A DNA stretch of 38,319 nucleotides from Patescibacteria group bacterium (GTDB lineage: Bacteria; Patescibacteriota; Microgenomatia; Woykebacterales; 2-01-FULL-43-14). The stretch lies in contig JAMCZT010000008.1 in NCBI GenBank assembly GCA_023485445.1, forward strand, positions 1 to 38,319, written 5' to 3'. Position numbers and translations under genes: made by a program. Shown in pieces: positions 13,172 to 38,184 of the stretch. How positions within the stretch are numbered: position 1 is the stretch's first letter; each line of letters starts with the position of its first letter. The notes under the pieces were generated by a model. It was not told the DNA's origin, made no database searches, and was given only the letters and a program-made list of their open reading frames with translations.

Positions 13172-14941
13172 ATGATATTAACCAACCTGTCAAAACATGA
13201 ACTTTTTATTGTTATTATAACTTTTCTTGTCGCTTTTTCTTTACCTTTTGCTGTGAATTTGGCTTTAAATCAAACAAGCGTTAGGATTAAAGCCACTTCT
13301 ACACCTACCTCTCTAACTCTTGCCAGTAGCGCTACTAGCGGGGCTACGATTAATATTGGCGACCCGATCGATGTGGCAATTTACCTTAATAACGTAAACG
13401 GCGTCGCTATTTCGGCAATCGATACGGTTGTAAAGTACAACCCCGCAGTGGTCGGAGTAGCCCCTTCAACACCAGTTACTTACGGAAATATCTTTGGGTC
13501 AGGCGCTCAGTTTTGTGGAACTACTTGCAGTGCTGCTCTAAACTCTGTTGATATGTCAGGGGGATCTGAAACAGGGAAGGTAATGATTAGCACTTTGGCC
13601 TGGGATAGTCTAGGAGGAGCAAGCCTAAGCGCCTATTCCGCGACCTCTTCGGCTCAAATTGCAACGGTTCGTTTTGTCGCCAAAGCTGCCACTACAAGTA
13701 GCAGTATTTTTCTAGATTTTAAAGGAACACCGACTGCAGATCCAAATGTAATTACTTGTAGCGATACTGACCCAGTCGTCGCCAATCGTTGTTCAACGAC
13801 GGACTCAAATGTCGTTAAACAACTTTCCGCAGGTGAAACATCTGCAGATGCCGATACCTTAACCAAAGTAACTAACATTTCATTTGCCGTAACCAGCCCT
13901 ACTCCTGCCACATTCTCTAGTGTCTCACCGACATCAGGGCAAGTAGGAACTCCAGTAACAATTACCGGAACAAATCTAGGTACTAGCGGTACTATTTCTT
14001 TTAATGGTGTCCTCGGGACGGCGACCTCATGGAATGATACGAATATAGTGTTAAATGTCCCGAACAATGCCACTTCAGGTACAATTACAATTCAAACAGT
14101 CAATGGAACAATCACGACAACTAGCTTCTCTGTCGTTGCTGCGCCACCGACAATTTCCAACTTTTCGCCAACATCAGGATTGGTAGGTGCCTCAGTCACA
14201 GTTACTGGAACCAATTTTGGTTCAACAAGTACCGGCGCTCAAGTTCTTTTCAACGGCACGGTTGCCAATTCTATAACTTCATGGAACAGCACGACCATCG
14301 TCGCAACAGTACCTAATGGCGCAACAACAGGTAAGATCTCTGTTACTTTACCAGCTGGAAGTGCCACTAGCGTAACAGATTTTACAGTAAATCCTCCAGC
14401 GTTGGTCGATAACACTCCACCAGCCATCACAAATGTGGCAATCAGTAACGTCACAATCTCAGGTGCAACTATTACTTGGGTAACCGACAAATCATCAACA
14501 TCCTTAGTTGAATACGGAACCACTGCCGCGTATGGTTCTTCTTCGAATGGGGATAGTGGCATTTCGCATTCTGTTAATTTAACTAATTTAACCGCGGGGA
14601 CGACTTATCATTTCCGAGTCAGGAGCAACGATGGAAATGGTCATGAGGCGATTGAAAATGATAATTACTTTACAACATTAACACCAACTCCAGCGCCAAC
14701 ACCAACCCCGGAACCAACTCCAGCGCCAACACCGGCCCCGGAACCAACTCAAAACAACACACCAGCCCCCACAAAGCCAACTTCTGACCTGAACAAGGAT
14801 GGTAAAGTTAATGTCTTTGATCTGTCGATCTTATTAAGAAAGTGGAACAGAACTAGTGACGTGGCTGATGTAGACTTAAACAGTGACGGTAAAGTGAACG
14901 TATTTGACCTTTCAATTTTACTCAGAAGCTGGAACAGATAA
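13172..14941 (+). CDS. Adaptor scaffoldin: signal peptide + cohesin-like + 2x IPT/TIG + FN3 + Pro/Thr linker + C-terminal dockerin
   Basis: ORF opens at 13085, but the ATG at 13172 (MILTNLSKHELFIVIITFLVAFSLPFAVNLAL) gives a normal signal peptide. Cohesin-like TSLTLASSATSGATINIGDPIDVAIYLNNVNGVAISAIDTVVKYNPAVV; IPT repeats FSSVSPTSGQVGTPVTITGTNLG and ISNFSPTSGLVGASVTVTGTNFG; dockerin DLNKDGKVNVFDLSILLRKWN / DLNSDGKVNVFDLSILLRSWN. Confidence 0.85.
   Translation: MILTNLSKHELFIVIITFLVAFSLPFAVNLALNQTSVRIKATSTPTSLTLASSATSGATINIGDPIDVAIYLNNVNGVAISAIDTVVKYNPAVVGVAPSTPVTYGNIFGSGAQFCGTTCSAALNSVDMSGGSETGKVMISTLAWDSLGGASLSAYSATSSAQIATVRFVAKAATTSSSIFLDFKGTPTADPNVITCSDTDPVVANRCSTTDSNVVKQLSAGETSADADTLTKVTNISFAVTSPTPATFSSVSPTSGQVGTPVTITGTNLGTSGTISFNGVLGTATSWNDTNIVLNVPNNATSGTITIQTVNGTITTTSFSVVAAPPTISNFSPTSGLVGASVTVTGTNFGSTSTGAQVLFNGTVANSITSWNSTTIVATVPNGATTGKISVTLPAGSATSVTDFTVNPPALVDNTPPAITNVAISNVTISGATITWVTDKSSTSLVEYGTTAAYGSSSNGDSGISHSVNLTNLTAGTTYHFRVRSNDGNGHEAIENDNYFTTLTPTPAPTPTPEPTPAPTPAPEPTQNNTPAPTKPTSDLNKDGKVNVFDLSILLRKWNRTSDVADVDLNSDGKVNVFDLSILLRSWNR
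14683..14750 (+). repeat. 30-bp tandem repeat (about 2.3 copies) encoding a TPAPTPTPEP-type linker
   Basis: ACCAACTCCAGCGCCAACACC(AA/GG)CCCCGGA at 14683-14712 and 14713-14742, partial third copy. Confidence 0.9.
14786..14938 (+). other. Dockerin module of the adaptor scaffoldin (two F-hand Ca2+ loops)
   Basis: Two D-x-N-x-D-G-x-V-N-x-x-D loops, near-identical repeats. Confidence 0.9.
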
Positions 14942-14972
14942 TTTTTAATCTATAATAAAAGGAGTACTTCCA

Positions 14973-16151
14973 ATGTTTAACAAAAAAGTAATTAGTATTT
15001 TTAGTTTATCTTTTTTAGGTCTTCTTCTTTACACTAAACCAGCTTTTGCGGCTACCTTATCTCTCTCTCCGGGCAGCGGAAATATCAACCAGGGAAGTAC
15101 TCTAAATGTCCAAGTAAAGTTAAACGCAGGTGGAGATGCCGTAAACGCGGTTTCCGCCTTTTTGACTTATTCAGCAGATAAACTTGATGTCGCTTATGTC
15201 AGTTACAGTTCATCTGCTTTTGGAATTGAAGCTGAAAACACTTATGGAGGAGGGAGCATTAGAATATCACGGGGAAGCGTAAGTCCGATAAGCGGAAACG
15301 CAACGGTAGCCACAATTGGTTTTAGAGGAAAGACACTAGGAAATGCATCTGTTTCGTTTGCGGCCGGTTCCGCGGCCCCTCGTGCCTCTGACAGCTCTGA
15401 TTCGCTTAGTTTAGCTGGTAGTGGCGGTGGGAGTTATAGTGTGGTAGAAGCTCCGCCGGAACCACCAAAAGACACTACTGCTCCTAAAATCTCGGGAATT
15501 TCCGTTGTAGATACTTCCACAACCAGTGCAACAATTACCTGGAAAACGGATGAAAAAGCAGATTCTTATATCGAGTATGGTTTAGAAAAGGATAAATATT
15601 TCCTAAATGTCTCTAACGGCGATTTAGTAACGGAACATTCATTAAAATTGGAAGGACCAGTCTTAGTGGCGGGAACTAAATTTCATTATCGAATAAAGTC
15701 AAAAGACGCTGCGGGAAACCAAGTGGTTGGAGATGACGGAGTTTTTCAGCTAAAAGGATTCAAAGTAATCGTAAAGGCTGTAGACAACAATAATAAACCT
15801 TTAGTTGGTATAAAGGTATTACTTTATAGTGATCCGTTAGAAGCAGTAACCAACTCAAAAGGAGAGGCTAGTTTTGATAATGTCGCTCCCGGAAAACACT
15901 TGGTGCTAATCAAATCAAATAATGCTGAAAAAACAAACGAAATAACAGTAACTGCGTCATCCGTTCCACAAGTTACTACGATAAACGTAGGAGCGCCACT
16001 TATCGAATCGTCACAACAAGGGAATATTTTCAGCAATCTTGCGGTTTATGCTGTAGTTATCGTCCTTGGAATTATTATCGGAGTTCTTTACTACTTCTTA
16101 AAAATTAAGAGGAAAACTCCTAGTAACACTAGTAATTCTTCTAGTTATTAA
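14973..16151 (+). CDS. Membrane-anchored cohesin protein (anchoring scaffoldin): signal peptide + cohesin + FN3 + carboxypeptidase-regulatory/PEGA-like + C-terminal TM
   Basis: 392 aa; LSLSPGSGNINQGSTLNVQVKLNAGGDAVNAVSAFLTYSADKLDVAYVSY...GNATVATIGFRGK is cohesin-like; C-terminal LAVYAVVIVLGIIIGVLYYFLKIKRK is a TM plus basic stop-transfer; SD AAGGAG. Confidence 0.85.
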   Translation: MFNKKVISIFSLSFLGLLLYTKPAFAATLSLSPGSGNINQGSTLNVQVKLNAGGDAVNAVSAFLTYSADKLDVAYVSYSSSAFGIEAENTYGGGSIRISRGSVSPISGNATVATIGFRGKTLGNASVSFAAGSAAPRASDSSDSLSLAGSGGGSYSVVEAPPEPPKDTTAPKISGISVVDTSTTSATITWKTDEKADSYIEYGLEKDKYFLNVSNGDLVTEHSLKLEGPVLVAGTKFHYRIKSKDAAGNQVVGDDGVFQLKGFKVIVKAVDNNNKPLVGIKVLLYSDPLEAVTNSKGEASFDNVAPGKHLVLIKSNNAEKTNEITVTASSVPQVTTINVGAPLIESSQQGNIFSNLAVYAVVIVLGIIIGVLYYFLKIKRKTPSNTSNSSSY

Positions 16152-16197
16152 CATAGCTACTAAATAGACAGAGCTAGTAATCTAATTTGCATTTTGC

Positions 16198-16233: not shown

Positions 16234-16247
16234 ATCTAAGGATTTAG

Positions 16248-17273
16248 ATGAAAAGGAAGTTTATATTCATTTCGTTAATAATATGTTTTTTTGCCAGTTA
16301 TTTTTTGTACTGTAAAAATGTATCAAATGAATTTGGCAAAGTTAAAGAAGTTAAAGCTCAAACCGCCCCGGTTGATTATAACGATGTGATTTTCCTCCAT
16401 CATTCAACAGGTCAGGGATTGATCGATGGCGGAAATGTAAGAAAACTTTTGACGGATTTAGGTTACCAATTTTGGGATCACGGCTATAATTCTCAAGGCC
16501 TTACCTTACCAAACGGTACTTCAGCTGGTTATAATTATAATATTCCAAATGATAATACTGACCCGATCGGACTCGTCACCACATTTGAACTACCTTTCGA
16601 CGCATCTTCTCCCGCACATCCAAGTCAACCAACTAATGCTCTGTCCGGATTATTGCGGCACAAAGTAATCGCTTTCAAGTCGTGCTTTCCAGCGAGTGCC
16701 ATTTACAACGATGCGATGCTAAACCAGTATAAAGATTATTACCTTCGAATCAGAAATGTAACCGATAAGTACCGAGACCATATTTTCATTGCTTTTTCCA
16801 CCCCACCCCTTCACCCCTCAAGTACCGATTCTCAACAAGCTACCAGGGCTCGAGCTTTCGCTAATTGGCTAAAATCTCCCGAGTATCTTGACGGACACCC
16901 AAACCTTTTTGCTTTTGATTTCTTTGATTTACTAGCCGCGCCTGCAGACGCGACCACTGAAGCCAATATGCTTCGCGCCGAATATCGACCTCCCTATGTT
17001 GATTCCCACCCAAACGCCTTAGCCAATCAAACCATCGGCCCAATTTTTGTAAATTTTATAGACAACGCCGCTAAAAGTTACAATCCAAACTCCTGGCCAA
17101 TCAAATCTTTGCTTGGTGATTTAAACGGTGACAATGTTGTTAACAAGGTTGATGTTGACGAACTTCTCAACAACTGGGGGTATTTCCCTCGAAACGTTAA
17201 AGCTGACACAGATATCAACGGAGTGGTTAATGGAGTAGATTTTGCCTTAGTTATTAAAGATTGGGGCAGATAA
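16248..17273 (+). CDS. Secreted SGNH-hydrolase-like protein with C-terminal dockerin
   Basis: 341 aa; signal peptide ending KEVKAQT; VIFLHHSTGQGL, AFKSCFPAS, DSHPNALANQTIGPIF (possible D-x-x-H-type block); dockerin DLNGDNVVNKVDVDELLNNWG / DTDINGVVNGVDFALVIKDWG. Confidence 0.7.
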   Translation: MKRKFIFISLIICFFASYFLYCKNVSNEFGKVKEVKAQTAPVDYNDVIFLHHSTGQGLIDGGNVRKLLTDLGYQFWDHGYNSQGLTLPNGTSAGYNYNIPNDNTDPIGLVTTFELPFDASSPAHPSQPTNALSGLLRHKVIAFKSCFPASAIYNDAMLNQYKDYYLRIRNVTDKYRDHIFIAFSTPPLHPSSTDSQQATRARAFANWLKSPEYLDGHPNLFAFDFFDLLAAPADATTEANMLRAEYRPPYVDSHPNALANQTIGPIFVNFIDNAAKSYNPNSWPIKSLLGDLNGDNVVNKVDVDELLNNWGYFPRNVKADTDINGVVNGVDFALVIKDWGR

Positions 17274-17277
17274 CTCA

Positions 17278-20200
17278 ATGGGAAGAAAATTTATACTTGT
17301 TACCGCTTCAATTATTATTTTTCTTATTGGCCTAAACCTTCTTAATAAAAATAATAATTCGATAAATTTACCCTCTAAAATCCAAGCCCAAACATTAGAC
17401 TCCGACTGGCCTCAATTAGGACACGACTCTCAAAAAAGTAATGCTACTAACCAAATTGTAAATGGTCCTTATCGCTTTTATTGGAGATGGACAGATGTGC
17501 CCATTGCTTCTCGAATTCAACCGGTAATATTTAATGGGACTATGTTTGTAGGAGGGCTAAATGGAACTTTCTATGCTCTTGATGCTGCAGCTGATACTCG
17601 AGGACAAGCTCCTAGGATAGTCTGGCAAAGAGATCTCAAAGACCCAACAGGAGCACTTAACTCACCCATTAGATCTGGAGCCGGAGTTGATGATGCAACC
17701 AATACAGTTGTTGTAGGTACTCAACATGGAGTAATTTATGGTTTGGATATTGCAACAGGCAATGTGGGGGGTAGTCCAAAATGGACTGTCCAAACTGGAG
17801 GAGCTATTTTAGCCTCTCCTCTTATGTATAATGGAGTAGCTTATCTTGGTTCCTCAGATGGTAACTTCTATGCCATAAATACTGCTGACGGAAATGTCTT
17901 GTGGAAGCATCCAATTACTGATCCGGTTAAAGGTAATGTACCTATATTAGGTTCAGCTGCCTTATCTGCAGATGGATCGAGACTTTTCTTTGTGGCGGAA
18001 AATGTTCAGGCTTATGCTTTAAATACTGCTGATGGATCCGAAAGCTGGAACCAGCAACTCCAAGGCCAATCTGGAGCTGACCGCTGGCCAGTAGTGTTGG
18101 GTAACACTGTAGTTTTTAGAACCCAGCCAATTAGAAATTTATGGGATCTTTTACATGAAGGTGATACTGTCATGGATTCTGCAGGAACTGTTTTGGCTGA
18201 TTGGAGTGCTGACTGGAATATTGTTAGACCCCAAATTATTAATAACTTGACTGCAAGTCCTGTCAACCAGACCCTTTTTGTTTTAGATGTTAATACCGGA
18301 CAATCAAAGGGAGTGGCTCCGGTTTTGGCTACTTATGGTACTCAAGATCCGCCCGCTCCACCTACTGTTTATAATCAAATGTTTTATCTTCCTTACCGAG
18401 CCCGTCATGGAATTCAAACAGATGGCGGATCTGTCCATGTGACTACCAGATATGATGCAGAACTCGGAAGAATGGATCCAACAACTTTGGATATTGCAGG
18501 GCTTACTACTGCTGACACCTTTACTTATCAGTTCCGGATGACCTCTGATGAACAATCTGTTCCTACACTGGCTGGCAATTTACTTTTAATGGACAGTTGG
18601 GAAAGGTTAGGTGGGGTACAACTGACTGCATCTACCAATGGTAATTTGGTTGCTATTGCTCAAAGAGCAGCTAATGATTCTTGCGGTTGGGGGCCAGGTG
18701 GAAACCAAATTGTTTTTTCCGAAAACTGTCCTTCTGCTGGACCTTTGACTACAGAAGGAAGAGCTAGAGCAGGAGCAGTGGTAGGTTCTGGCAGGATCTT
18801 CTGGCATGTCGATGCTGTTACCGATGCCAATGGTAGTGGCTATGAATTTTCTGGCAGTGGCTTAGGGGCAATTGGTCCAGCCACTGGAGGTACGACCATA
18901 CCTTTACCTGCAGGAACTGCGCTTTCTCCAATTAGTCCGCTACCATCCAGAGCAGCCACTCCTTCAGCTCAGGCTTTGCTCAATTACATTACCACTGAAC
19001 CAACGCGTCCGGTTGCTGCCCCGACTGATTTAACGACAAAATTAGAGCAGGAAATCCAAAAAATAGTTAGCGCCAATGGTCATTTATTACCTTTATTTAT
19101 TCAGCCGGGAGGATTCAACCCTCTAGGTTCTTATCCCCAAGATACTAATAACCCACCTGAGCCGGCTGTTGTAGCTGGGTCAGATGCATTTTGGTTTGAT
19201 CCGGGTGAACAAGTTCTGACTTTATCACAAGCGTATCCTTATCTTAATCCAACTCTTCAAGGACAGCTTAAAACTTATTTGCAGACTGAGATTAATCGAT
19301 TTTCACCCTTACAAATGCTTCCCTATGGTGCATCTTACGGATCATCCGGTGATTGGTTAAGAACTGGAGTCTCTCGAGAGTTTTATCCAGTGACAATTCG
19401 CAGTAGTCTAGGTACTGGTAACCTTGGAAGTTGGCCACCACCGGCACCAGCTATTCAAACTATATATTCTCTGTGGGCCTACGCCAAATATGTTGATGGT
19501 TTTGGTCCAACCTCTTATGTAGCCACAAATTGGACCAGTATTAAAAATCTATTTGATGCCAAAAAAGGCACTGTAAATAATTATGCGAGAATTGCCGGAG
19601 CAATTGGGTACTCTCGTATAGCTGCTCAACTTGGTCATACTGCTGAAGCCACCGAGGGACAAAACGTGGCTATTGCTGCCATGCAAAACGGAGTAAATTT
19701 CCAGAATTGGTTAGACGTTGCTGACAATGTTTATACTCCCACAACTCCCGATTATAGGCAAAACCAACTAAATAGAGAGCCTGGATTCCGAGGTCAGGTG
19801 TTTTTTGGTCTGACACCGGAAATTGGGAGGTTTTTAAGGGATACTAATAATACTCCAGTTAATACCTTTATTAATCGGTTGACCCATTACACCAATAATG
19901 ATTACCTTTGGTATGTAACTCGGGTAGGTATACAAGGAGAGGCGGGTGAAAATAGTTTCCAAAATCCTGAACTAGGCTGGTCTGTTTTCTTGGCTCAAGC
20001 GTATATTAATGGAGCCAGTCAACAGCAACTGAGGTATTGGTTAGACAGGCCTTGGGGATTGGGTGACCTCTGGTATTTGCAAAAATTAGTTGCTACTATT
20101 GAGGCGCCTTCATCGGCTTTTTCTTTAGCTGATATCAACCAAGATAGTCAAGTTAATATTAAAGACATGGAAATCTTGTTTGATAATTGGAATATGCCAA

Positions 20201-20289
20201 AAAATCGAAGGGCAGATATCAATGGTGACGGAATAGTTAACAGTGTTGATTTTGCACTGGTTTTAAAGGATTGGGGTAAAGTAAAATGA
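17278..20289 (+). CDS. Secreted PQQ-type beta-propeller + alpha-helical (putative toroid) domain + dockerin
   Basis: 1003 aa; signal KIQAQT; propeller blades GTFYALDA, GVIYGLDIATG, GNFYAINTADGNVLWKH; dockerin DINQDSQVNIKDMEILFDNWN / DINGDGIVNSVDFALVLKDWG. Confidence 0.85.
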   Translation: MGRKFILVTASIIIFLIGLNLLNKNNNSINLPSKIQAQTLDSDWPQLGHDSQKSNATNQIVNGPYRFYWRWTDVPIASRIQPVIFNGTMFVGGLNGTFYALDAAADTRGQAPRIVWQRDLKDPTGALNSPIRSGAGVDDATNTVVVGTQHGVIYGLDIATGNVGGSPKWTVQTGGAILASPLMYNGVAYLGSSDGNFYAINTADGNVLWKHPITDPVKGNVPILGSAALSADGSRLFFVAENVQAYALNTADGSESWNQQLQGQSGADRWPVVLGNTVVFRTQPIRNLWDLLHEGDTVMDSAGTVLADWSADWNIVRPQIINNLTASPVNQTLFVLDVNTGQSKGVAPVLATYGTQDPPAPPTVYNQMFYLPYRARHGIQTDGGSVHVTTRYDAELGRMDPTTLDIAGLTTADTFTYQFRMTSDEQSVPTLAGNLLLMDSWERLGGVQLTASTNGNLVAIAQRAANDSCGWGPGGNQIVFSENCPSAGPLTTEGRARAGAVVGSGRIFWHVDAVTDANGSGYEFSGSGLGAIGPATGGTTIPLPAGTALSPISPLPSRAATPSAQALLNYITTEPTRPVAAPTDLTTKLEQEIQKIVSANGHLLPLFIQPGGFNPLGSYPQDTNNPPEPAVVAGSDAFWFDPGEQVLTLSQAYPYLNPTLQGQLKTYLQTEINRFSPLQMLPYGASYGSSGDWLRTGVSREFYPVTIRSSLGTGNLGSWPPPAPAIQTIYSLWAYAKYVDGFGPTSYVATNWTSIKNLFDAKKGTVNNYARIAGAIGYSRIAAQLGHTAEATEGQNVAIAAMQNGVNFQNWLDVADNVYTPTTPDYRQNQLNREPGFRGQVFFGLTPEIGRFLRDTNNTPVNTFINRLTHYTNNDYLWYVTRVGIQGEAGENSFQNPELGWSVFLAQAYINGASQQQLRYWLDRPWGLGDLWYLQKLVATIEAPSSAFSLADINQDSQVNIKDMEILFDNWNMPKNRRADINGDGIVNSVDFALVLKDWGKVK

Positions 20290-21851
20290 AGAAACTCTTT
20301 TTAATTATCACTATTTTGGCCAGTACCGTAATCTTAGCTTTTATCTCTCAACCAAAGACTAGACACTCTCCTCCTAACCTTCCCGCTTTAGTCCAAGCTC
20401 AAACCACCGGTACCGATTGGCCTCAGGTTCAAAAAGATGCTGCTCACACCGGATATTCTTCTGAAACCTTAGGCACTAATTTCAAAGTAGCCTGGACTCA
20501 TCCTTTCCAGCCAGACAGAGTCCATCCTCAAGTCCAAGCTATTATCTACAAAGGTAAAGCTTTTGTAGGTACTGAAGGGGCTAATGGTCAAAAACCAACC
20601 CTTTATGCCCTAAATTCTACCAATGGCCAAGAAGTTTGGAAATTTGAAGCAGGTGGACCAATATTAAACTCAGTCGCTGCAGATAATGGCAAAGTCTTCT
20701 TTGGATCATTAGATGGAGCTGTTTATGCCATCTACACTGATACTGAAAATGGGCATACTCAAGGCCAACTTGCCTGGAAACAACAATTATCCCAAAGATT
20801 AGGCTTTTCAACAGCACCGATAGTAGCTGATAATAAGGTTATGCTGGGTGGACAGGATGGTTACTTTTATGCTTTGGATCCAGGAGATGGCCACACGATC
20901 TGGAGGTATGATGCCGATGCTCCTATTATTCAAACTGCTGCTTATGACCAGGGCAAAGTTTTCTTTGGCACGCTTGATATGTATGTTTATGGCTTAAATA
21001 CGTCTCCGGCAAATACTAATGATCCGGCATCTATTCTTGCTTGGAAGAGCGCTAAACTGGATGGTAAAGGTTTTAAAGATTATTGGCCAGTTGTTACTCA
21101 AGGTAAAGTACTGGCCAGACCCATACCCAAAGAACCATGGGTCTATACAGGTTTTCCGAATTTAGGCTTTCCTTTTGTCCAAATCTGGAGTGCTTCCGAT
21201 CCTAACTGGACATGGCTAAACACTAATAGTTCGGCTATAGCTGCCGGCCATGCTGCACAAGTGGCCGATATTATTAATTCGCAAAACAAAGCTATAGCTA
21301 GTTATGAGGCTAATCCGGGTAGCTTCCAGAAAAATCTTTATGTTTTGGATGAAAATACCGGTCGGGAACCTTTTGCCGTACCTCAGTGGATTGAGCAAAC
21401 CATGAACGGCACTCCGGCTGCCCCTTGTGTTGATCGGGATGGTAAACTAGTTACCCCCGTATCGTTTATCCGCAGTGGATGGGGCAGGCTCGAGTTGGCA
21501 ACAAGTAGCGGTCGGATTACTGATCTTTTGTATGATGGTTATGATTGGTATGAGCAGCCATTTAATTCGACAAGTGGGGGTAGTCCGGCTGGAATGGGTA
21601 ATCCTGATGAAAATTTGGCGGTTAGTTGTACGGCTAACTTAATTCTCTCCGCTCATCACATGGAGACAAACGCAAATTACACCGGAGCCTTTAATTTAGA
21701 TACCAGAAGATGGATACAAATTCCACCTGGTTACAGAAATAGCCAAATGTTTAACAATACCCAGGCCGGAGGCACTAATCCTTTCTCTATTTCCAACGGT
21801 ATGATTTATCATGTGGCGGTTAATGAATTAGTAGCCAGGACAACGAATTAA
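20286..21851 (+). CDS. Secreted PQQ-type beta-propeller protein without dockerin (likely N-terminal half of a split gene)
   Basis: 521 aa; signal LVQAQT; TLYALNSTNGQEVWKFEAGGP, GYFYALDPGDGHTIWRYDADAP; ends NELVARTTN with no dockerin; ATGA overlap with upstream CDS. Confidence 0.82.
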   Translation: MKKLFLIITILASTVILAFISQPKTRHSPPNLPALVQAQTTGTDWPQVQKDAAHTGYSSETLGTNFKVAWTHPFQPDRVHPQVQAIIYKGKAFVGTEGANGQKPTLYALNSTNGQEVWKFEAGGPILNSVAADNGKVFFGSLDGAVYAIYTDTENGHTQGQLAWKQQLSQRLGFSTAPIVADNKVMLGGQDGYFYALDPGDGHTIWRYDADAPIIQTAAYDQGKVFFGTLDMYVYGLNTSPANTNDPASILAWKSAKLDGKGFKDYWPVVTQGKVLARPIPKEPWVYTGFPNLGFPFVQIWSASDPNWTWLNTNSSAIAAGHAAQVADIINSQNKAIASYEANPGSFQKNLYVLDENTGREPFAVPQWIEQTMNGTPAAPCVDRDGKLVTPVSFIRSGWGRLELATSSGRITDLLYDGYDWYEQPFNSTSGGSPAGMGNPDENLAVSCTANLILSAHHMETNANYTGAFNLDTRRWIQIPPGYRNSQMFNNTQAGGTNPFSISNGMIYHVAVNELVARTTN

Positions 21852-21860
21852 TTAAGATTT

Positions 21861-27600: not shown

Positions 27601-27784
27601 CGACGCCACCTCTTTAATAGCTGGAGACATTAATCGAGATGGAAAGGTCGATCTTTCCGATTTACAACTATTGTTTGATAACTGGAATATGCCAAGGGAC
27701 AGAAGGGCTGACGTTAATGGCGACGGAGTGGTCAATGGGATAGATTTTGCGCTAGCATTAAAAGATTTTGGGAAATCGCCCTAA
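24635..27784 (+). CDS. Secreted glycoside hydrolase (DUF5060-like N-terminal Ig domain + GH-A-clan-like TIM barrel with inserted CBM-like domains) + dockerin
   Basis: 1049 aa; signal KINAQT; candidate acid/base in HSWEFVNEGDP, candidate nucleophile in TIRGETGIVD, WLHKFIWGQINSGGISSLYWWQD; dockerin DINRDGKVDLSDLQLLFDNWN / DVNGDGVVNGIDFALALKDFG. Confidence 0.75.
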   Translation: MMKKVLLTFLAVLALWTFIYQKNQVYLMKINAQTTGPQIGSINDNLSAYPNSIVPQYSKFELTFSINNTVATNLQFPYDASPPTGLIGKIGLSVDGLFTTDNWATTITQPGFLYQDYEQTVQNNREHLYPKGVPVWKIRFAPKIKGTYHYKIRATDDSGINYYPTNGDLTFSVGDSPPSNHGFIQVSPNDKRYFEFSDGTLFNPAGVNGGFDAKNDSLVTLDQKLTQQSNNGLNLFRLWMSGTSIAGSAWSPWIWFGGPWYGGYIPNSALWVNPQKNQTNPLYNPTASSEDYIFALNYNPPNTSAACLFTGWMNPPISVKPSTKYHFKVRALAENVTGPRNSAQTNYGLTLKIAGWPNADANSCPDALSSYSALTPYLNGNGWQTVEADYTTTGSQQFIDFLYMVMDNVNTGSYAHVAEVSMKEVLANGSLGPEILIKSKSDMQNDFNLRESWKWDYLFDRAAEKNIYFKTVVLEKNDRVWNMIKPDGTMDTTESNNNFYAVDPSDWTKETKVRRLQEYFWRYLAARWGYSTAVHSWEFVNEGDPFSGYHYTSTEAFAKYMHQNEPERHLVATSNWHSFPVDSFWGNSAYPDVDYADIHAYINTGSYNWSPPTGTYLETDSANVMDSKGGSIRVPAGKNSVNGDLGYPVKGQGKWTISVWMKINNYTGSCPYGMSSGLAGPIFRINMDGTGGFTRSIPYDPTDPNKYYVCTNSFTGTKDWTKFSEAFDIPDSVYHNLRVGFDTSYATTGTAWFDNLEITDPAGKKFYVLGDGTFDDQVRLDQDTAVYAQSLSSLYSSAGPAGAAKPTIRGETGIVDPLTGGEWSELAKDTQGVWLHKFIWGQINSGGISSLYWWQDAINKNNLWGQFKPFSNFMQGIPINNGHYQDAQTSVSDSNLRAWGQKDTFNGKAHLWIDNKTDTWTNVVNNPGTVTPASGTVTFSGMPIGSYNIAWVDPYTGNTIKTETLNVNGAGNILLTLPSTLTTDVAVKIDATSLIAGDINRDGKVDLSDLQLLFDNWNMPRDRRADVNGDGVVNGIDFALALKDFGKSP

Positions 27785-27812
27785 AAACTTGGGCGAAACT
27801 GGTTAAAAATAT

Positions 27813-30800: not shown

Positions 30801-31100
30801 CAGCCGGGGGACCAGCTAAGGACTTACTTGGATATTCCTTGGGTTGACCAGGATTATTACTACTGGGAAAGGTTAGCCAGAACTATAGAAGCTTATGGAA
30901 CAACCACGTGGGTAAACTTAGGAATCGCCGGTAGGGATGCTTTAACTGATATTAATCAAGATGATCGAGTGGATTTACTTGATTTGCAGGTCTTGTTCGA
31001 GAACTGGAATATGCCAAGGGACAGAAGGGCGGATGTTAACGGTGATGGAGTAGTTAATAGTATTGATTTTACTTTGGTACTAAAGGACTGGGGTAAATGA
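27813..31100 (+). CDS. Secreted PQQ-type beta-propeller + alpha-helical (putative toroid) domain + dockerin
   Basis: 1095 aa; signal KVQAQA; GAIYALDNADGSIIWRYP, GNVYALNT, GYFYAIDKNNGSKRWEY; dockerin DINQDDRVDLLDLQVLFENWN / DVNGDGVVNSIDFTLVLKDWG. Confidence 0.85.
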   Translation: MKKLFIFISALLATLSLIVTYQLGDKTSLSLSPKVQAQAINYDWPTLAHDSKRSGSAQEGPDGPYTKVWYRDFWSEFGEQVDNGYQPIVAHNNNLNKDIIYIGITRGAIYALDNADGSIIWRYPKQGYIGGILNSPTYDNGILYVGSLDGNVYALNTSSTSGSNPAAPAVVWTFKTGREGGFWATPAVTNDSVYIGGRDGYFYAIDKNNGSKRWEYQVGFPILTSPAVENNTIYFGAEDMKGYALNTSGNLIWKSNQMAGQTMKGEYPVLTGDKVIFRTSPNDMGHSKLEAMNVLTYAAGCLDDQAYQGDIAPNWANTPCFKQKFISTDPGADPVKEDQTIRDYLSGKSITFTTTNTATPRQITIPGRPQYETFFALNKSDGQKPYISPVLYTGGYVHPGVAPVIDPTGKVWVVYRSYYSDWDDTGNPQMFEGLGTINMQTGTITPFNPNQHPTGYSCTTASCNPVYNTNMWFIGDETTAISLTSNRLYTNHWSGLGEADTTNGNLQSIIGQRDVFQYKLTDNSPHLGPFNSYGDGINPPSVVESKGPTIFRDTVVVNYNSVVAAMRGHLAGTTPTPISTITPYPVQTLNPTTAGPVNIPTQTELEKYIWEIPQVSNIDNAKSADLQAKLNSEVSKFITTGMLNPWILAFSIANGIGYWAEPLQTGYYLSLAYPYLSPQLQAQVKTFINNDFTNIHPLGNVYDYLRTARYPWDSGLTYDNGQILDPNHKERSPYIIGPHIFCQIKGNCDGNPYENTVGYIPSSNFGIDRLYYFWSYAQRSGDWSWIENYWDNTSNPGRASIKRLRVLANIDTASDASLLGIGSATDPTCITYNCRSIFDSVNRRVSGLIAYARIAYHMNQIAPSADNQAELDWAVDAATKAMQARLRYVNIFRPIDGNCANGNLCWTTSSSEGGLFIQKNGWNNTNIPQYFDLIPEVSRLLSDYAMADFTRYNNFIDAVTPLAYLQKGGSSFDGEASYVAPHNIQGIFLAKDLVLHQPGDQLRTYLDIPWVDQDYYYWERLARTIEAYGTTTWVNLGIAGRDALTDINQDDRVDLLDLQVLFENWNMPRDRRADVNGDGVVNSIDFTLVLKDWGK

Positions 31101-34100
31101 AAACAATGATAAAGGTAAAGTTAAAAGTTAATGCGAGAATATTGTTCTTATCTATTCTTATTGGACTTATTCCCGCCCTTGGTATTTTATTCTGGTCAAA
31201 GGATAAGACTTCTTTAAAAATTTCTTCCCAAGTCCAGGCCCAAACAAACAGTAACGATTGGTCGATGGTGGGAGCTAATCCCCAACGAACTTCTTGGGTT
31301 TCTACCCAAGTTTCTGGCAATTTGAACTTGGAGTGGTATAAACCGATTGAGGCCTTTATTCCCCAAAATTCCCAACTAATTGCCACCAACAATATGATTT
31401 ATGTCTCTTCTGCCCGCGGACTTTATGCTCTGGCGTATGACACCGGCAATATCATTTGGCATTTTGATACTGAATTGCCGCTGGGTAACTCGCCTACAGT
31501 GGTGGGAGGAGTAGCTTATGTTGGCGGTATGGATAAAAAACTTTATGCTTTGGATGCCAATACCGGCTTGCTGCTTTGGTCTTTTGACGGTGCTACCGCT
31601 GGCTACTCAGCTAATCCCTTAGTTTTAAATGACGTGATTTATGCTGCCAATCGGGATGAAAGTCTGTATGCTATTGGAGCTCAAGGTAGCACCAGACAAG
31701 GTCAGCAAATCTGGAAATTTAGCGCCGGCGGACCAATCATTCAATCTCCTGCTTACAAAGATGGCGTCATTTATTTTGCCGCCAACGATAACTACGGATA
31801 CGCAGTTAATACGGCCAACGGCAGTCTCAAATGGAAATCAGCCAACCAGTTGCCTGGCGATGCCTGGCAATCCTATTGGCCGGTTATTTATACTGATCCG
31901 ATTAGCGCCAAGGATTATGTCATCTTTTCTGCCGCTTCGTCTTACCGGCACAGCGGTCTAAATCCGGGTACAGGCAGTGTTGCTCATCCAGTTTATCAGC
32001 AGGATAGTCCTTTTGCCTGGGATTGTAATCCCAGTTTAAACGCCACCTGCACTCTAAAAAATTATCCCTACTCTAATTACGAAACCATGCAAAAGGACGG
32101 AGTTTTCCCCTGGCAATCCAGCCCTACTAATTACACCCCGCCCGGAGGCGCACTGCCTACAGTTAACTTGCCGGACGCTTGGGCACAGGGCAAAATTATT
32201 TATGACGGTACCAATATTACCAATTACTTGGAAAACATGTCTTGGAGAAGGACATTTATTGTCCTGGATACTGGAACCGGCCAGGAATTTACTCAAGATG
32301 CTAATAATAACGGCAAACCTGATTATGCGCCAATTACCCTCTGGCAAACCAAGACCGGCAATATGTATCCGCCAGTGGTAGGGGCTGATGGCACGCTCTA
32401 TGTAGAAAACATTTACTCTGCTGCTTCCGGAAGTTATAGCATTGCCCAAGGTCGGGTTTGGGGATGGAGGATGGGCACGCCATACTTTATGGAGTCGCCG
32501 GGCAGAGCTGGCCAGGGAGCGATGGATGAACCGCAGTCGATTTCCATGGGGGGAAATATCCTCTACCGTAGTATCTGCTGTGACCGGGTGGGAGACTTTT
32601 TTGACGTCAGGCCTTCCACTACCCCTAATTTGATTCCAAGCGGATCCTTGTGGAATTACAGTAAAACTCTTCTCTCCCAGGCAGGGGATTATAACGAAAT
32701 GTGGTGGGGAGAAGATCCGACACAAGGATATCCAGGACTTGAAGGCAATTATGGAGGCAATACTGCTTTAGGCGCTCCTCATGATGGACGCAATGGCATT
32801 TACAATAATAACGGTCAGGAATCACCAATGATTCCTTACAATGGTAAAATTTATGCTTTCCATTCCAATACCATTTTTGCCTATGGCACTGGTACACAGC
32901 AAGGAAACAAGGGTTTGCTGCGGGTTACTCCTGCCAATGAGAATTTAACTGTTCCCACCACGGACGATCTCAAAGCCAAGTTGGAAGCAGAGATTAATAA
33001 AATGGATACCAATGGCGATGGGGCTTTGGATAACCTCCGACCAGCATATTATGGTGTTGGGCAAGTTGCTCCGACTATTTTAAATGACTACTTTGACAAT
33101 CCAGGAGAAACTGTCTACACCTTGACTCAGGCTTACCCTTATCTTTCGGCTACGACCCAGCAAAAGGTCAAAACATTTTTGCAGACTGAATTCGCCAATT
33201 ACTTTAACCCAACTATGTATTCGCACATTGGCTGGTCAGAAGGGCAGTCTAGGGAGGCGATGCCTATTCCCAGTGATGTCCTGCCTAGTATGGCCGCTTC
33301 GGTCAAATCCACTTTAGCTGGCAACAGCTGGTCCTGGCAATATCCCCAGGAAAACTTCTATGCTTTATGGAAATATACCCAAATTGTACCCACTGATGCC
33401 TCAACTGCCTATAATTTGGCCAAGTCCAAACTGGAGATCCATTCCAATCTTGATGCTACTTACTTTAATCAAAATACCTGGGAGCTAAACGGCTATATTG
33501 CCGGCTATATTGGCTTTTTGAATTTACAAAAAATGGTAAGCATGGATAAAGCTGACGCTACTCTTCGCAACAACGTTCAAACTGAGCTAACGAGATTAGA
33601 AGGAATTTGGGTTAATAGCATCTCTAAAGATACTCCGTGGATTGATCCAAATAATTCTAATTTGCCGGCTCATAGCGGTCCCTATCATTACCGTAACCAT
33701 AATATTGACCGGATTTTTATCAATCTAGTACCGGAGCTTGGAGATTACTTAAACCAAAATGCTCTTTCTAAAATCCAGTCTGCCTGGGAGGATTATAATT
33801 ATGTCGCTCCTTACTGGTTTGTTTCTCGTTATGATGCTATTAACGACGAAGGAGTGAATGGGCCACTGGATATTTACCATGCCCTTTTCCAGGCTAAAGT
33901 TTATGCTTTGAAGCAACCTTACTCAGAGCTGGTGAAATATTTAGACGTCCCAGCTTTTGCTCGAGGAGACCTGTTCTATATCCAAAATCTTACCGCTGCG
34001 TTAAGTACAGTGCTTAATATTTTTTCTCCTGATATTAACCAGGACGGCCACGTCGATAGAATGGATTTAAGTATTCTTTTTGATAATTGGAATACTGCTC

Positions 34101-34192
34101 GGGATAAAAGAGCTGATATTAACGGAGACGGGATAGTTAATGGAGTGGACTTCGCCTTATTAATGAAAGACTGGGGTAAAACAATATCATGA
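31097..34192 (+). CDS. Secreted PQQ-type beta-propeller + alpha-helical (putative toroid) domain + dockerin
   Basis: 1031 aa; signal QVQAQT; GLYALAYDTGNIIWHF, KKLYALDANTGLLLWSF; dockerin DINQDGHVDRMDLSILFDNWN / DINGDGIVNGVDFALLMKDWG; ATGA overlap with upstream CDS. Confidence 0.85.
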   Translation: MKTMIKVKLKVNARILFLSILIGLIPALGILFWSKDKTSLKISSQVQAQTNSNDWSMVGANPQRTSWVSTQVSGNLNLEWYKPIEAFIPQNSQLIATNNMIYVSSARGLYALAYDTGNIIWHFDTELPLGNSPTVVGGVAYVGGMDKKLYALDANTGLLLWSFDGATAGYSANPLVLNDVIYAANRDESLYAIGAQGSTRQGQQIWKFSAGGPIIQSPAYKDGVIYFAANDNYGYAVNTANGSLKWKSANQLPGDAWQSYWPVIYTDPISAKDYVIFSAASSYRHSGLNPGTGSVAHPVYQQDSPFAWDCNPSLNATCTLKNYPYSNYETMQKDGVFPWQSSPTNYTPPGGALPTVNLPDAWAQGKIIYDGTNITNYLENMSWRRTFIVLDTGTGQEFTQDANNNGKPDYAPITLWQTKTGNMYPPVVGADGTLYVENIYSAASGSYSIAQGRVWGWRMGTPYFMESPGRAGQGAMDEPQSISMGGNILYRSICCDRVGDFFDVRPSTTPNLIPSGSLWNYSKTLLSQAGDYNEMWWGEDPTQGYPGLEGNYGGNTALGAPHDGRNGIYNNNGQESPMIPYNGKIYAFHSNTIFAYGTGTQQGNKGLLRVTPANENLTVPTTDDLKAKLEAEINKMDTNGDGALDNLRPAYYGVGQVAPTILNDYFDNPGETVYTLTQAYPYLSATTQQKVKTFLQTEFANYFNPTMYSHIGWSEGQSREAMPIPSDVLPSMAASVKSTLAGNSWSWQYPQENFYALWKYTQIVPTDASTAYNLAKSKLEIHSNLDATYFNQNTWELNGYIAGYIGFLNLQKMVSMDKADATLRNNVQTELTRLEGIWVNSISKDTPWIDPNNSNLPAHSGPYHYRNHNIDRIFINLVPELGDYLNQNALSKIQSAWEDYNYVAPYWFVSRYDAINDEGVNGPLDIYHALFQAKVYALKQPYSELVKYLDVPAFARGDLFYIQNLTAALSTVLNIFSPDINQDGHVDRMDLSILFDNWNTARDKRADINGDGIVNGVDFALLMKDWGKTIS

Positions 34193-37100
34193 AAAAATTG
34201 TTTATTATTTTTCTAGCTTTAGCGTTTACAGTTGGGTTAGGCTTAATCCTTCGGTTGCCTCTTCTTTTTTCAGCAGGTATTCCTGGGAAAGTCCAAGCTC
34301 AAACCAGAAGCAATGAATGGTCTATGGCTGGAGCCAATCCTCAAAGAACTTCCCATGTTGACAGTACTGTAGAAAATCAGACTGAAATTAAAGGGCAGCT
34401 AAATCCCGAATGGTATAAAAAGATTGATCCCTATATTCCTGGAAAAGTCCAGGTGATTGCTGCCAGCGATATTTTATATGTTTCTACCTCCAGAGGATTG
34501 TATGCTTATGATGTCAACAGCACTAACCTTAAATGGATTTATTGTACTTCCACCCAAACAGCTTCTACTAATCCTTGTTCAGAAAATGAGCTGCCTTTAG
34601 GCCATTCACCAACTTATTATAACGGGACAATTTATGTGGGAGGTTATGATAAAAAGATCCATGCCATAGATGGTAGCACTGGAGCTTTCAAATGGGCCTT
34701 TACAGCTGGGGATGGATTTGATGTTAATCCTTTAGTTGTTAATAATGTAGTTTATGCAGGAAACAGGGATGGGTACTTTTATGCCATTGATGTAAACACT
34801 GGTAATCAAATCTGGCGATACCAAACTGGTGGGCCAATTAGGTACTCTGCCGCCTACAAAAATAATGTGGTCTATTTTGCCTCCAATGACATGTTTGCCT
34901 ATGCTCTTAATGCAACAGATGGCAGTGTAATCTGGAAATCTAGCAAGATTCCAGGATTAGGTTTTTATACTTATTGGCCAGTAATTTATACCAATCCGGC
35001 TACCAATAAAGATTATGTTATTTTTACCGGTGCTTGGCCTTATCGTGCTGAAGGTTCATATGGAGGAGGGCTGCCGGCGCCAGCCGGTTTTGAAAGTTAT
35101 AATTTTAACGGTTTTGAAGGGGATGAAGTCTTTCCCGATAGGTTTACTGTGCCTTATGGCACTATTGGTTATCAAACAGGACAGGTAAGCGGTCCTTGGG
35201 CAACAGGCTCAGCGACATTGGATCTTAGCAAGCCTAATGGCAGCGTGAAATCAGTTCCTGATTATTTTGAGAACAAGCCTTGGAGAAGAACTGTGTTTGT
35301 ATTAGATGCCGGGAGCGGCCAAGAATTTACTACTGATTTAAATAATAACGGCAAACCGGAGTACGCACCCTTCCTGCAGTTTGGTACTTATGGAAGCAGC
35401 CGATATCCGGCTGTGATTGGTGGGGATAAAGTTCCATATTTGACTAACGACTATCAAGAAAGAGGTTATATTAATGCCGGAAACCTGGTTGGCTGGAATT
35501 TGGGGTCTCCAGTTGTACAGGTGCCTAGCTCAGCCATGTTTGCTGTTGATGAGCCTGTAGCGTATTCCGGTGCCGGGAATATGATTTATTGGAAACATTG
35601 CTGTTTCCGTCAAGCCGGTAGCTTTGATCTCTCTAAACCAAATACTACTTTTCCTCAAGCTGATATGTTCAATCGGGAGTGGCAATACTTTGGTTATGAT
35701 TTTACCAATAGATTACCTGAGTATCAGAATGAAGGATGGCGCTTTGCCTATGGAACCCATGGAGATGATCAAAGCCCGCCGGTCCCCTATAAAGGCAAGG
35801 TTTATATGTTTATTTATAATTCGCTGTTTGCCTTTAGTCCTACAGGGAGTTTGACCTTCCCTCAGCCTACCCCTAGGCCAACGACTACGCCTTTTACTTT
35901 GGCGACAAAGTTTAGCGGTTTAACTGCCATAATTTCATCAACTACCAATCTTTGGCCTTCACTGGTAATGCAAAGTAAATATGCTATGACAGATCAAACT
36001 ATCCAAGGATTAGATCCTACTTATTATGAACTAGCCAAGATTACGGCCTCAGATACTTTATCACCAACTACCTTGGTTTCAGATACTTCTAAAGCTATTG
36101 CGACCAAAGTTACCCAAACCTTTGGTGCTAATACTTTAACTTCCTGGGTTTCTAAAAGAGCTCCAGCTACTTTATTCCAAACAGACAGTAATTTATATAA
36201 TATTTTAGGTAATTACACCAAAATTGCTTATCCAACTGCTACAGGCACTGCCATATTCTCAGGATCAGGTAACTTTACCGGCACTGATATGTCGGGATCC
36301 TGGATTTTGGCCTGGAATGATACTAATGCCCCCCGCTTTATGCCCATTTTAATCTCACTCCAACATAGACCAACCCAAATTACTTATTCCAGCACTGGAA
36401 TTAGAATGAATTTTAGCGGTCAAGCAGGATATCTTTCAGTTACTCCTTTCAATGGTCTTGCTAACCCTGCACTTTCTCAAGCTCAAGCTTGGGGCAGTAG
36501 TTTACCGGCTGATATTGTCCAAAAAGCCCAAACTTTAAACCAAATTTCCAAGTCATTCCCGGTAGATGTAACCGAAAGCTTTAATGAGGATCAAACTACT
36601 CATGATGTTATCCAAAGTTTTAATTACACCTATACAGACATTACTGATGACTGGAATACTCAAACTCAAAGAGTAGCCTTTTTGCCGCCTGATTTAGGCT
36701 TAGCTGCTTGGGGCAATTCTCCCATTAGAATTAATGGTCAGCCTGCATCAGCTTTGTTTGATCTAAATTATCCTACTCCTTGGGGAAGGTTAATGGGGGT
36801 ATCTAATAGTTCTTCTGCCAGCGTTGCCTTACCAGGAATTTTAAAATACTGGAACCAAACCGAAACTACTCCTAATATCCCCGATACTGATCCTTTAAAG
36901 CAAAAATTAATTTCTGAGGTGGATAAAATCTTAGCCGCAGGACATCTAAAACCTGGATACTTTGCCAGTGGCCTTATTTACGAGAATGCTGATGATCGTT
37001 ACCCTGATTATTTCAGCAATCCTGCGGAAACTATTTATACTTTGATAAGAGTTTTACCTTTACTTCCGGCAGATAAACAAGCTCAAGTTAGGACATATAT

Positions 37101-38184
37101 CCAAAATGAATATACCAGCTATCCTCCATATAACATTATTCATGTTGGTTGGAGAGATGGGGCTAATCGTAATAGTTTAGATCTTCCGCCGGAAACTATT
37201 ACTGCTATGTCGAGCTACGGACCAAAGGATTACAATTCTGCTTCCAGCATGTGGGCAAAGAATTGGAATTTTCTGCCTTACAACTTCTTTGCTTTATCCC
37301 AGTATGCAGATACTTTTGGTGGAACTGCAACTGTTTATAACCTAAGTAAACCCCGTTACAGCACTTTGCAATATTCCATTGGCCAGCGGGACATCCCATA
37401 TTTACTTAACTCCTATCTGGCTGGGGATATGGGCTACCTTAAGTTAGCGTCAACAGCAGGGGAAACAAGCACCAATTTAGACACTATTAAACAAGAATTG
37501 GTAAAACAGTTAATCAAAAGAGCCGCTTTGTCTAAAAATGCTCAGAGTTTGCAAAATTCTGGTTTTGAATATGGTGGTTATCCTTACACTATTGAAAGGT
37601 TTAGTGAAACGGATAATGAAATAGATTTTAAGAAAGTCCAAATAGCAGGAACTTATAGAGATTGGGATAACATACCTGATGGACAGTTTTGGCCACGGAT
37701 GAGTTTGGATTTTGTTAACTTAGTTCCTCCTGTAGCAGCCTTTATGAAAGATTATGTCAGGGATGAGGTTAAAGCCTCAGTGGACAGTTATAACTTTAGA
37801 GCTCCTTACTGGTTTGCCAGTTTGTCTGAAGGGTTTGCCTTAGAAGGGACAATTTCTCCTCTATATAACGTAATCTCCAACTTCCAAGCTAAAGCGATGA
37901 TCTTGGAAGGCAGTAGGGAAAGTCTGGAAAAATACCTAGACGTTCCAGCCTTTGAAAGAGGAGACTTATTTTACATTCAAAATCTTACTTCAGTGCTCAC
38001 TGCCAAAGCCACAACTATTCCCGCCGACGTTAATCAAGATCTGACGGTTGATGCAAACGATTTAAAGCTATTGTTTGAAAACTGGAATATTCCCAGGGAT
38101 AAAAGGACTGACGTTAATGGGGATGAGGTAGTTAACAGCGTGGATTTCGCCTTAATTCTTAATAGTTGGGGACGAGTAAAATAG
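34189..38184 (+). CDS. Secreted PQQ-type beta-propeller + beta domain + alpha-helical (putative toroid) domain + dockerin (full fusion)
   Basis: 1331 aa; signal KVQAQT; KKIHAIDGSTGAFKWAF, GYFYAIDVNTGNQIWRYQTGGP; central region homologous to the 925-aa protein; dockerin DVNQDLTVDANDLKLLFENWN / DVNGDEVVNSVDFALILNSWG. Confidence 0.87.
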   Translation: MKKLFIIFLALAFTVGLGLILRLPLLFSAGIPGKVQAQTRSNEWSMAGANPQRTSHVDSTVENQTEIKGQLNPEWYKKIDPYIPGKVQVIAASDILYVSTSRGLYAYDVNSTNLKWIYCTSTQTASTNPCSENELPLGHSPTYYNGTIYVGGYDKKIHAIDGSTGAFKWAFTAGDGFDVNPLVVNNVVYAGNRDGYFYAIDVNTGNQIWRYQTGGPIRYSAAYKNNVVYFASNDMFAYALNATDGSVIWKSSKIPGLGFYTYWPVIYTNPATNKDYVIFTGAWPYRAEGSYGGGLPAPAGFESYNFNGFEGDEVFPDRFTVPYGTIGYQTGQVSGPWATGSATLDLSKPNGSVKSVPDYFENKPWRRTVFVLDAGSGQEFTTDLNNNGKPEYAPFLQFGTYGSSRYPAVIGGDKVPYLTNDYQERGYINAGNLVGWNLGSPVVQVPSSAMFAVDEPVAYSGAGNMIYWKHCCFRQAGSFDLSKPNTTFPQADMFNREWQYFGYDFTNRLPEYQNEGWRFAYGTHGDDQSPPVPYKGKVYMFIYNSLFAFSPTGSLTFPQPTPRPTTTPFTLATKFSGLTAIISSTTNLWPSLVMQSKYAMTDQTIQGLDPTYYELAKITASDTLSPTTLVSDTSKAIATKVTQTFGANTLTSWVSKRAPATLFQTDSNLYNILGNYTKIAYPTATGTAIFSGSGNFTGTDMSGSWILAWNDTNAPRFMPILISLQHRPTQITYSSTGIRMNFSGQAGYLSVTPFNGLANPALSQAQAWGSSLPADIVQKAQTLNQISKSFPVDVTESFNEDQTTHDVIQSFNYTYTDITDDWNTQTQRVAFLPPDLGLAAWGNSPIRINGQPASALFDLNYPTPWGRLMGVSNSSSASVALPGILKYWNQTETTPNIPDTDPLKQKLISEVDKILAAGHLKPGYFASGLIYENADDRYPDYFSNPAETIYTLIRVLPLLPADKQAQVRTYIQNEYTSYPPYNIIHVGWRDGANRNSLDLPPETITAMSSYGPKDYNSASSMWAKNWNFLPYNFFALSQYADTFGGTATVYNLSKPRYSTLQYSIGQRDIPYLLNSYLAGDMGYLKLASTAGETSTNLDTIKQELVKQLIKRAALSKNAQSLQNSGFEYGGYPYTIERFSETDNEIDFKKVQIAGTYRDWDNIPDGQFWPRMSLDFVNLVPPVAAFMKDYVRDEVKASVDSYNFRAPYWFASLSEGFALEGTISPLYNVISNFQAKAMILEGSRESLEKYLDVPAFERGDLFYIQNLTSVLTAKATTIPADVNQDLTVDANDLKLLFENWNIPRDKRTDVNGDEVVNSVDFALILNSWGRVK

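Follow-up and report, generated by a model that had tools for sequence, protein, structure and literature searches.

Cellulosome-like assembly is viewed as a trait of plant degraders with larger genomes. In Ruminococcus flavefaciens, ScaC is a single-cohesin adaptor with a phylogenetically separate cohesin and its own groups of enzyme dockerins, and ScaE is a single-cohesin surface anchor (PMC5301203). Monovalent cohesin-dockerin adaptors and single-cohesin proteins with C-terminal transmembrane helices have been described for the "scaffoldin-containing" microbes Paenibacillus guangzhouensis and Lachnoclostridium sp. MSJ-17 (PMC11557425). Here, a run of cohesin and dockerin genes was analyzed in a Patescibacteria group bacterium (genome G000, assembly GCA_023485445.1, 899 kb in 43 contigs, 88.6% complete). 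It lies on contig JAMCZT010000008.1 (C19), which was studied over its whole length of 38,319 nt and is called the window. We propose that the run encodes a two-tier, monovalent cohesin-dockerin surface tether, in which a membrane anchor would hold an adaptor by an alpha-type pair, and the adaptor would hold a single enzyme by a beta-type pair (alpha and beta are names coined in this analysis). From the sequence comparisons, the probability of this reading is put at about 0.72.

The proposed system follows the same logic as ScaC and ScaE. However, R. flavefaciens has the multi-cohesin proteins ScaA and ScaB in the chain and an LPXTG anchor, whereas in the window's genome of about 0.9 Mb no multi-cohesin protein was found and the anchor has a transmembrane helix. 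Monovalent adaptors and single-cohesin proteins with a C-terminal transmembrane helix are shared with P. guangzhouensis and Lachnoclostridium sp. MSJ-17, but these have SLH anchors and adaptor-fused glycoside hydrolases (GHs) or two-cohesin scaffoldins, and no adaptor-anchor-cargo gene run was described for them (PMC11557425). Cohesin-dockerin plugs are also the principle of the Acetivibrio and Clostridium cellulosomes, and type I-like cohesin folds (1g1k, 2vn5) were top matches here. Nevertheless, two marks of a conventional cellulosome, a scaffoldin with at least two cohesins and dockerin-bearing cellulases of recognised GH families, were not found. The Limousia mucinolysome resembles the window system as a cohesin-dockerin complex for a glycan that is not cellulose, but it is a multi-enzyme complex of anaerobic gut bacteria with mucin enzymes (PMC12997984). 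In the candidate phyla radiation (CPR), to which the window also belongs, SEML1_0315 of a cultivated saccharibacterium is an essential dockerin protein, and its authors speculated about host-cell glycan targets; a dockerin domain alone is mentioned for it, and no cohesin partner is described in the passage concerned (PMC10633639).

A literature search, which did not cover subscription papers and preprints, yielded no description of cohesins and dockerins working as a pair in CPR bacteria. A published census required scaffoldins with at least two cohesins and excluded metagenome-assembled genomes (PMC11557425), and therefore monovalent CPR systems would be missed by it. The window system is a monovalent version of cellulosome-type assembly and not a conventional cellulosome; it differs from the known systems in that no multi-cohesin protein was found, in its transmembrane anchor, in its cargo and in its host.

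Adaptor and anchor

Gene calls placed ten genes on the plus strand between 13085 and 38184, namely the adaptor, the anchor and eight downstream secreted genes. A first-pass annotation, made from the sequence alone, had described two cohesin-like proteins at the upstream end, one with a C-terminal dockerin and one with a C-terminal transmembrane helix, and both were recovered by gene calls and a hidden Markov model (HMM) built from relatives only. It had let the locus start at 13172, which is an internal ATG of the open reading frame 13085-14941; the cohesin, TIG, fn3 and dockerin domains are intact from either start. The features of the two proteins are as follows.

13085-14941, plus strand: adaptor scaffoldin, 618 amino acids (start 13085 or 13172); N-terminal transmembrane segment or signal, beta-type cohesin, two TIG domains, fn3-like domain, Pro/Thr-rich linker, C-terminal alpha-type dockerin (Pfam, genome scans, relatives-only HMM, type comparison)
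13313-13774, plus strand: beta-type cohesin of the adaptor, with a CGTTC motif (PF00963; in a tree clade with the G001 adaptor and the 636-amino-acid cohesin protein of contig C27)
14780-14938, plus strand: alpha-type dockerin of the adaptor (PF00404; two near-identical repeats DLNxDGKVNVFDLSILLRxW)
14973-16151, plus strand: membrane anchor, 392 amino acids; signal peptide, alpha-type cohesin, fn3-like domain, carboxypeptidase-regulatory-like domain, C-terminal transmembrane helix with a basic tail
15048-15401, plus strand: alpha-type cohesin of the anchor (relatives-only HMM, AlphaFold2 model, Foldseek)
16020-16088, plus strand: C-terminal transmembrane helix of the anchor (hydropathy)

With one cohesin and one C-terminal dockerin, the adaptor has the architecture of a ScaC-like monovalent adaptor scaffoldin. 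Its cohesin scored 22.5 bits with PF00963 in the protein scan and 25.5 bits in the genome scan (cut-off 24.1), and residues 87-223 were matched by the relatives-only HMM, which was built from 20 relatives' cohesins and zero window sequences (25.3 bits, E 5e-7). The iterated HMM lost the adaptor cohesin; for this protein the Pfam and first-round results were used. The adaptor dockerin scored 35.7 bits with PF00404.

The anchor failed PF00963, with no match at all in the Pfam scan, yet it passed both the relatives' HMM (residues 26-143, 77.9 bits, E 2.9e-23) and the fold test. The AlphaFold2 model of its cohesin, based on 35 aligned homologues, reached a predicted local distance difference test score (pLDDT) of 95.7 and a predicted template modelling score (pTM) of 0.90. 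In a Foldseek search of the PDB, cohesins made up 38 of the 39 best matches, the exception being one adhesin domain at rank 37; the best match was 1g1k (E 6.5e-8), and a non-cellulosomal Archaeoglobus cohesin was also among the matches. In addition, the family profile of the anchor cohesin retrieved PDB cohesins by sequence (E 1.2e-7). The anchor cohesin is the weakest link of the observation, but its reading as a genuine cohesin holds.

Proposed alpha and beta pairs

The types were compared across 58 relatives and the window's own genome (59 genomes, all of 0.5-1.5 Mb). Alpha dockerins have near-symmetric repeats of the DLSxLL type (18 of 20 residues identical between the repeats in the window adaptor), whereas beta dockerins are asymmetric, with 6-9 of 20 residues identical. 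At the recognition positions 10 and 11 of beta dockerins, the entropy was 2.1 and 3.0 bits in repeat 1 and 0.6 and 1.7 bits in repeat 2 (VNGxDF..LKDW), the better-conserved repeat. The cargo dockerins of G000 are without exception beta or beta-like, in contrast to the alpha dockerin of its adaptor. No such difference is seen in the sister family (G006, G008, G009), where adaptors and cargo have similar dockerins of the alpha type and the adaptor cohesins resemble the anchor cohesins.

The cohesins followed the same division. Anchor cohesins of the window's family were 37-49% identical to the anchor and adaptor cohesins of the sister family and 23-29% identical to the adaptor cohesins of their own family. 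In the tree, the anchors and the sister-family adaptors formed one clade (100/99), and the window-family adaptors formed another with the C27 cohesin (99/96). A single clade of all adaptor cohesins, a group chosen after the similarity matrix had been seen, was rejected by the approximately unbiased (AU) test (p 1e-54). The analysis of types suggests that the adaptor's cohesin and dockerin differ in specificity. Alpha cohesins occurred in G000, G001, G006, G008, G009 and G035, and alpha dockerins in the same six and G004 (p 1.6e-7). For the beta type, cohesins and dockerins alike were confined to G000 and G001, 2 of the 59 genomes (p 6e-4). Both p values count related genomes as independent. 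The order adaptor, then anchor, was kept in G001, G006, G008 and G009, with the orthologues adjoining the adaptors.

The strongest single argument for pairing of the anchor with alpha dockerins is a natural dockerin swap in G035, which belongs to another family. There, the body of a 1543-amino-acid protein is 56% identical over 850 residues to the cargo protein encoded at 21861. Its C-terminal dockerin, however, is alpha-type, with 33% identity to the 21861 dockerin and 52-57% to the window-family adaptor dockerins. The next gene encodes a 204-amino-acid cohesin-transmembrane protein, the cohesin of which is 64% identical to that of the window anchor, and no adaptor is present at this locus. 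Therefore, the dockerin type follows the anchor and not the enzyme.

In the proposed mechanism, the anchor would offer one alpha cohesin at the membrane, into which the adaptor would plug by its C-terminal alpha dockerin. The adaptor would in turn present a single beta cohesin at the tip of a spacer of two TIG domains, the fn3-like domain and the linker, and each cargo enzyme would plug into it by its asymmetric beta dockerin, in which repeat 2 forms the better-conserved face. Each anchor chain would then hold a single enzyme, exchangeable and at a distance from the membrane, and the enzymes would probably act jointly on an extracellular polysaccharide. The order of transmembrane anchor, adaptor and cargo had already been proposed in the first-pass annotation; the HMM and structure tests were passed and the matching of types across genomes agrees with it. 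The compact locus seen there was borne out as a gene run, but it is not self-contained, as further cargo and a second set of cohesins lie on other contigs.

Direct binding of the cargo dockerins to the anchor cohesin, with the adaptor as merely another anchored protein, is unlikely. The sister family and G035, with their alpha-like cargo dockerins, appear to work in this way or could do so, and cohesins can be promiscuous. Nevertheless, the cargo dockerins of G000 are beta and differ from the alpha dockerin at the recognition positions, and beta dockerins were found solely where a beta cohesin occurs.

Slightly less probable still is a division of labour with the second cohesin cluster of G000, on contig C27 (L015 1-5953). 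It encodes a 636-amino-acid cohesin-TIG-dockerin protein, a 200-amino-acid cohesin protein and a cohesin protein of at least 431 amino acids that is cut by the contig end. The 636-amino-acid protein might carry most of the cargo, leaving the window adaptor to serve a part, or two adaptors might route cargo to two anchors. Its cohesin belongs to the beta clade (43% identical to that of the adaptor), its dockerin is of a third type that was missed by PF00404, and two more cohesin proteins follow; moreover, the genome has ten cargo-type dockerins for two beta cohesins. On the other hand, adaptor, anchor and cargo adjoin on one strand in the window, and the assembled C27 stretch has no cargo gene.

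Cohesins and dockerins were also close neighbours in the relatives. A Pfam dockerin lay within 5 kb of 44 of the 59 Pfam cohesins (expected 1.9, maximum 10 in 100,000 draws), and a recurring core consisted of consecutive genes for a dockerin protein, a cohesin protein of about 200 amino acids and a cohesin-transmembrane protein. Similarity of neighbours covaried over 125 cohesin-dockerin pairs (r 0.306, compared with 0.184 +/- 0.022 after shuffling of partners within genomes, where none of 2000 shuffles reached the observed value), which supports pairing without proving it. A system without any pairing, in which the cohesin-like domains serve as spacers or bind sugars and the dockerins form calcium-stabilised tails, is very improbable, as it would leave the neighbourship, the covariation of types and the G035 swap without a reason, although cohesins and dockerins without an established partner do occur outside cellulosomes.

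Some points weigh against the two-tier tether. Covariation and co-occurrence could also stem from joint inheritance of neighbouring genes. The evidence for the beta pair comes from two genera only. Cargo could be bound by the second beta-type cohesin, that of the C27 636-amino-acid protein, in place of the adaptor. Finally, the secreted protein encoded at 20286 lacks a dockerin, which means that it must act in some other way.

Cargo genes and the remaining genome

The eight genes downstream of the anchor, all on the plus strand, are the following.

16248-17273: cargo 1, 341 amino acids, secreted; beta-type dockerin at 17112-17267 (PF00404)
17278-20289: cargo 2, 1003 amino acids; PQQ-type propeller, toroid, beta dockerin at 20125-20280
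20286-21851: dockerin-less gene, 521 amino acids; PQQ-type propeller
21861-24638: cargo 3, 925 amino acids; beta domain, alpha/alpha toroid (GH81-like fold), beta dockerin at 24480-24635
24635-27784: cargo 4, 1049 amino acids; DUF5060-type glycoside hydrolase, region like a carbohydrate-binding module (CBM), beta dockerin at 27620-27775 (homology to PDB 9gmj, Pfam)
27813-31100: cargo 5, 1095 amino acids; propeller, toroid, beta dockerin at 30942-31097
31097-34192: cargo 6, 1031 amino acids; propeller, toroid, beta dockerin at 34028-34180
34189-38184: cargo 7, 1331 amino acids; propeller, beta domain and toroid of the 21861 type, beta dockerin at 38020-38175

As predicted, seven of the eight genes end in a dockerin, and ATGA overlaps couple cargo genes at 20286, 24635, 31097 and 34189. 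PF00404 scores of the seven were 18.5-33 bits in the protein scan (cut-off 22.9). In the genome scan, the adaptor and all seven cargo dockerins were flagged as passing, that of 16248 only jointly with its in-frame neighbours; it is the weakest one (18.5 bits in the protein scan; 20.8, and 25.3 with the in-frame neighbours). Type I dockerins consist of two EF-hand-like loop-helix repeats that bind calcium, and the ligand positions D1/N3/D5/(N,D)9/D12 were conserved in all 16 dockerin repeats but one, repeat 2 of 16248 (D/D/N/N/D). The gene 20286 was considered as a broken gene, and this was rejected: its homologue in G001 also has 521 amino acids, is 54% identical and stands in the same place beside the 21861 homologue, and in G035 it is fused inside a 2462-amino-acid protein.

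The propellers of the cargo matched PQQ-type/BamB-like families. For the beta domain and toroid of 21861, the sole significant PDB matches in the fold search were eight chains of GH81 beta-1,3-glucanases (E 2e-7 to 1.5e-6, probability 1.00), with TM scores of just 0.34-0.45 on a model of pLDDT 63.9. PF17652 (GH81) did not match 21861 and gave 14.3 bits on 34189, under its cut-off of 25.6; 21861 is therefore called GH81-like in fold and not a GH81 member. A search of PDB sequences with a toroid profile returned chance armadillo and dockerin matches only. The 24635 protein is homologous to the solved DUF5060 protein 9gmj (E 8.6e-29), with PF16586 below cut-off. For 16248, no Pfam or PDB match was obtained outside the dockerin; its N-terminal part has an SGNH-hydrolase-like look.

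No cellulase family was above cut-off among the window cargo in Pfam. The first-pass annotation had suggested a purpose other than cellulose breakdown. Cellulose is indeed unlikely, but polysaccharide breakdown is not foreign to this cargo: because of the GH81-like fold of 21861 and the DUF5060-type hydrolase 24635, glycan breakdown is likely, and the cargo as a whole looks as if it acts on a polysaccharide. In other genomes several cargo units are fused in one protein (3262 amino acids in G031, 2462 in G035), and therefore the cargo proteins probably cooperate. Cargo with chondroitinase-B-like beta-helix domains, with CBM6/35 or with apiosidase-like domains occurs in G001, and cargo with metallopeptidase domains or Big_7 arrays in the sister family.

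Some further observations concern the cargo N-termini and the borders of the run. The leaders (window 16248-34300) consist of a transmembrane segment, a long polar stretch and a "KVQAQT"-like ending, with a c-region that is unusually long for a signal peptide, likewise in G001. The N-terminus of 21861 (window 21861-21990) reads "CHCERKRSNLYLLFNGLPRILWTLAMT" and resembles translated interspersed-repeat sequence; a repeat element was rejected, as it is single copy in G000. After the last cargo gene, a further open reading frame starts near 38277 (window 38277-38319) behind the ribosome-binding site AGGAGG. No leader can be seen in it, and the contig ends before it is complete; the cargo run thus probably ends at 38184. 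Upstream of the locus, before uvrC, 7405-11798 encodes a GAF/PAS histidine kinase, a response regulator and a membrane transglutaminase-like protein with a DUF2207-like N-terminus.

The G000 genome scan found three more cargo-type dockerin genes outside the window, on contigs C3 (toroid and dockerin, truncated where the contig begins), C31 (1031 amino acids, propeller-toroid-dockerin) and C9 (L011 3852-5138, 428 amino acids, N-terminal beta-like dockerin and C-terminal lipocalin-like domain, PF17186). With these and the C27 cluster, the window locus is therefore not the complete set. Every cohesin protein of G000 has one cohesin and none with two was found, in an assembly of 88.6% completeness with one C27 protein cut at the contig end; this agrees with the predicted absence of classical cellulosome architecture. 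The C27 cluster directly adjoins PilN/PilO-like genes, and a link to type IV pili was considered; such genes were near cohesin or dockerin genes in just a few genomes. Adjacency of C19 and C3 was rejected, as their ends share nothing, and the 127-base end common to C19 and C27 (window 1-127, L015 8168-8294, inverted sense) is an assembly-graph fork. Contamination or misbinning is unlikely, as beta dockerins were found on four contigs, and again in G001. Many G001 contigs start or end inside beta-dockerin sequence (C14, C15, C20, C35 and C40; L107, L108, L111, L114 and L118); near-identical dockerins may thus break assembly and make cargo counts uncertain.

Distribution and biological meaning

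PF00404 was present in 40 of the 59 genomes, own included, and PF00963 in 44 of the 58 relatives; in a sample of the phylum, PF00963 was found in 48 of 192 genomes. Loss of ribosomal protein L9 marks Microgenomates-type CPR lineages, and L9 (PF03948) was missing from all 16 genomes tested and positive in 10 of 14 controls, which suggests that these genomes belong there. Cohesin proteins of this bacterial class typically have one cohesin each. One cohesin per layer, which had been seen as the minimal design of the locus, therefore holds here but is not peculiar to this genome. What seems peculiar to the window's family is a second, orthogonal cohesin-dockerin pair.

Within the order, another private pair was noticed in G001, G003, G004 and G006, where a dockerin protein of about 270-295 amino acids ("NLTDFSILLYxW") has its own cohesin-transmembrane neighbour. 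The loci are L085 7121-9776, L084 2345-4741, L122 4388-5257 and L126 2145-2966. In L072, L073 and L074 of the sister family (f2), adaptor and cargo N-termini share a "YRxSINPPY"-like motif before the first transmembrane segment or signal, which looks like a sorting signal; the motif is absent from the window cargo.

More broadly, and with somewhat less than an even chance of being right, CPR bacteria of the Microgenomates type, whose genomes measure about 1 Mb, might have a general plug-and-play system for surface display, built on single cohesin-dockerin pairs that are mutually orthogonal and specific to each lineage. The same anchor-adaptor pair would then hold enzymes active on glycans in one family, and in its sister family metallopeptidases or adhesin-like proteins, possibly aimed at the surfaces of host or partner cells. 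If the tether proposed for the window is right, bacteria with tiny genomes could hold and exchange enzymes at their surface. The sister family with one pair and the window's family with two would be a natural record of how a second specificity arises, and new small orthogonal plug pairs would become available for engineering. Moreover, the extracellular targets of these uncultured cells would become testable.

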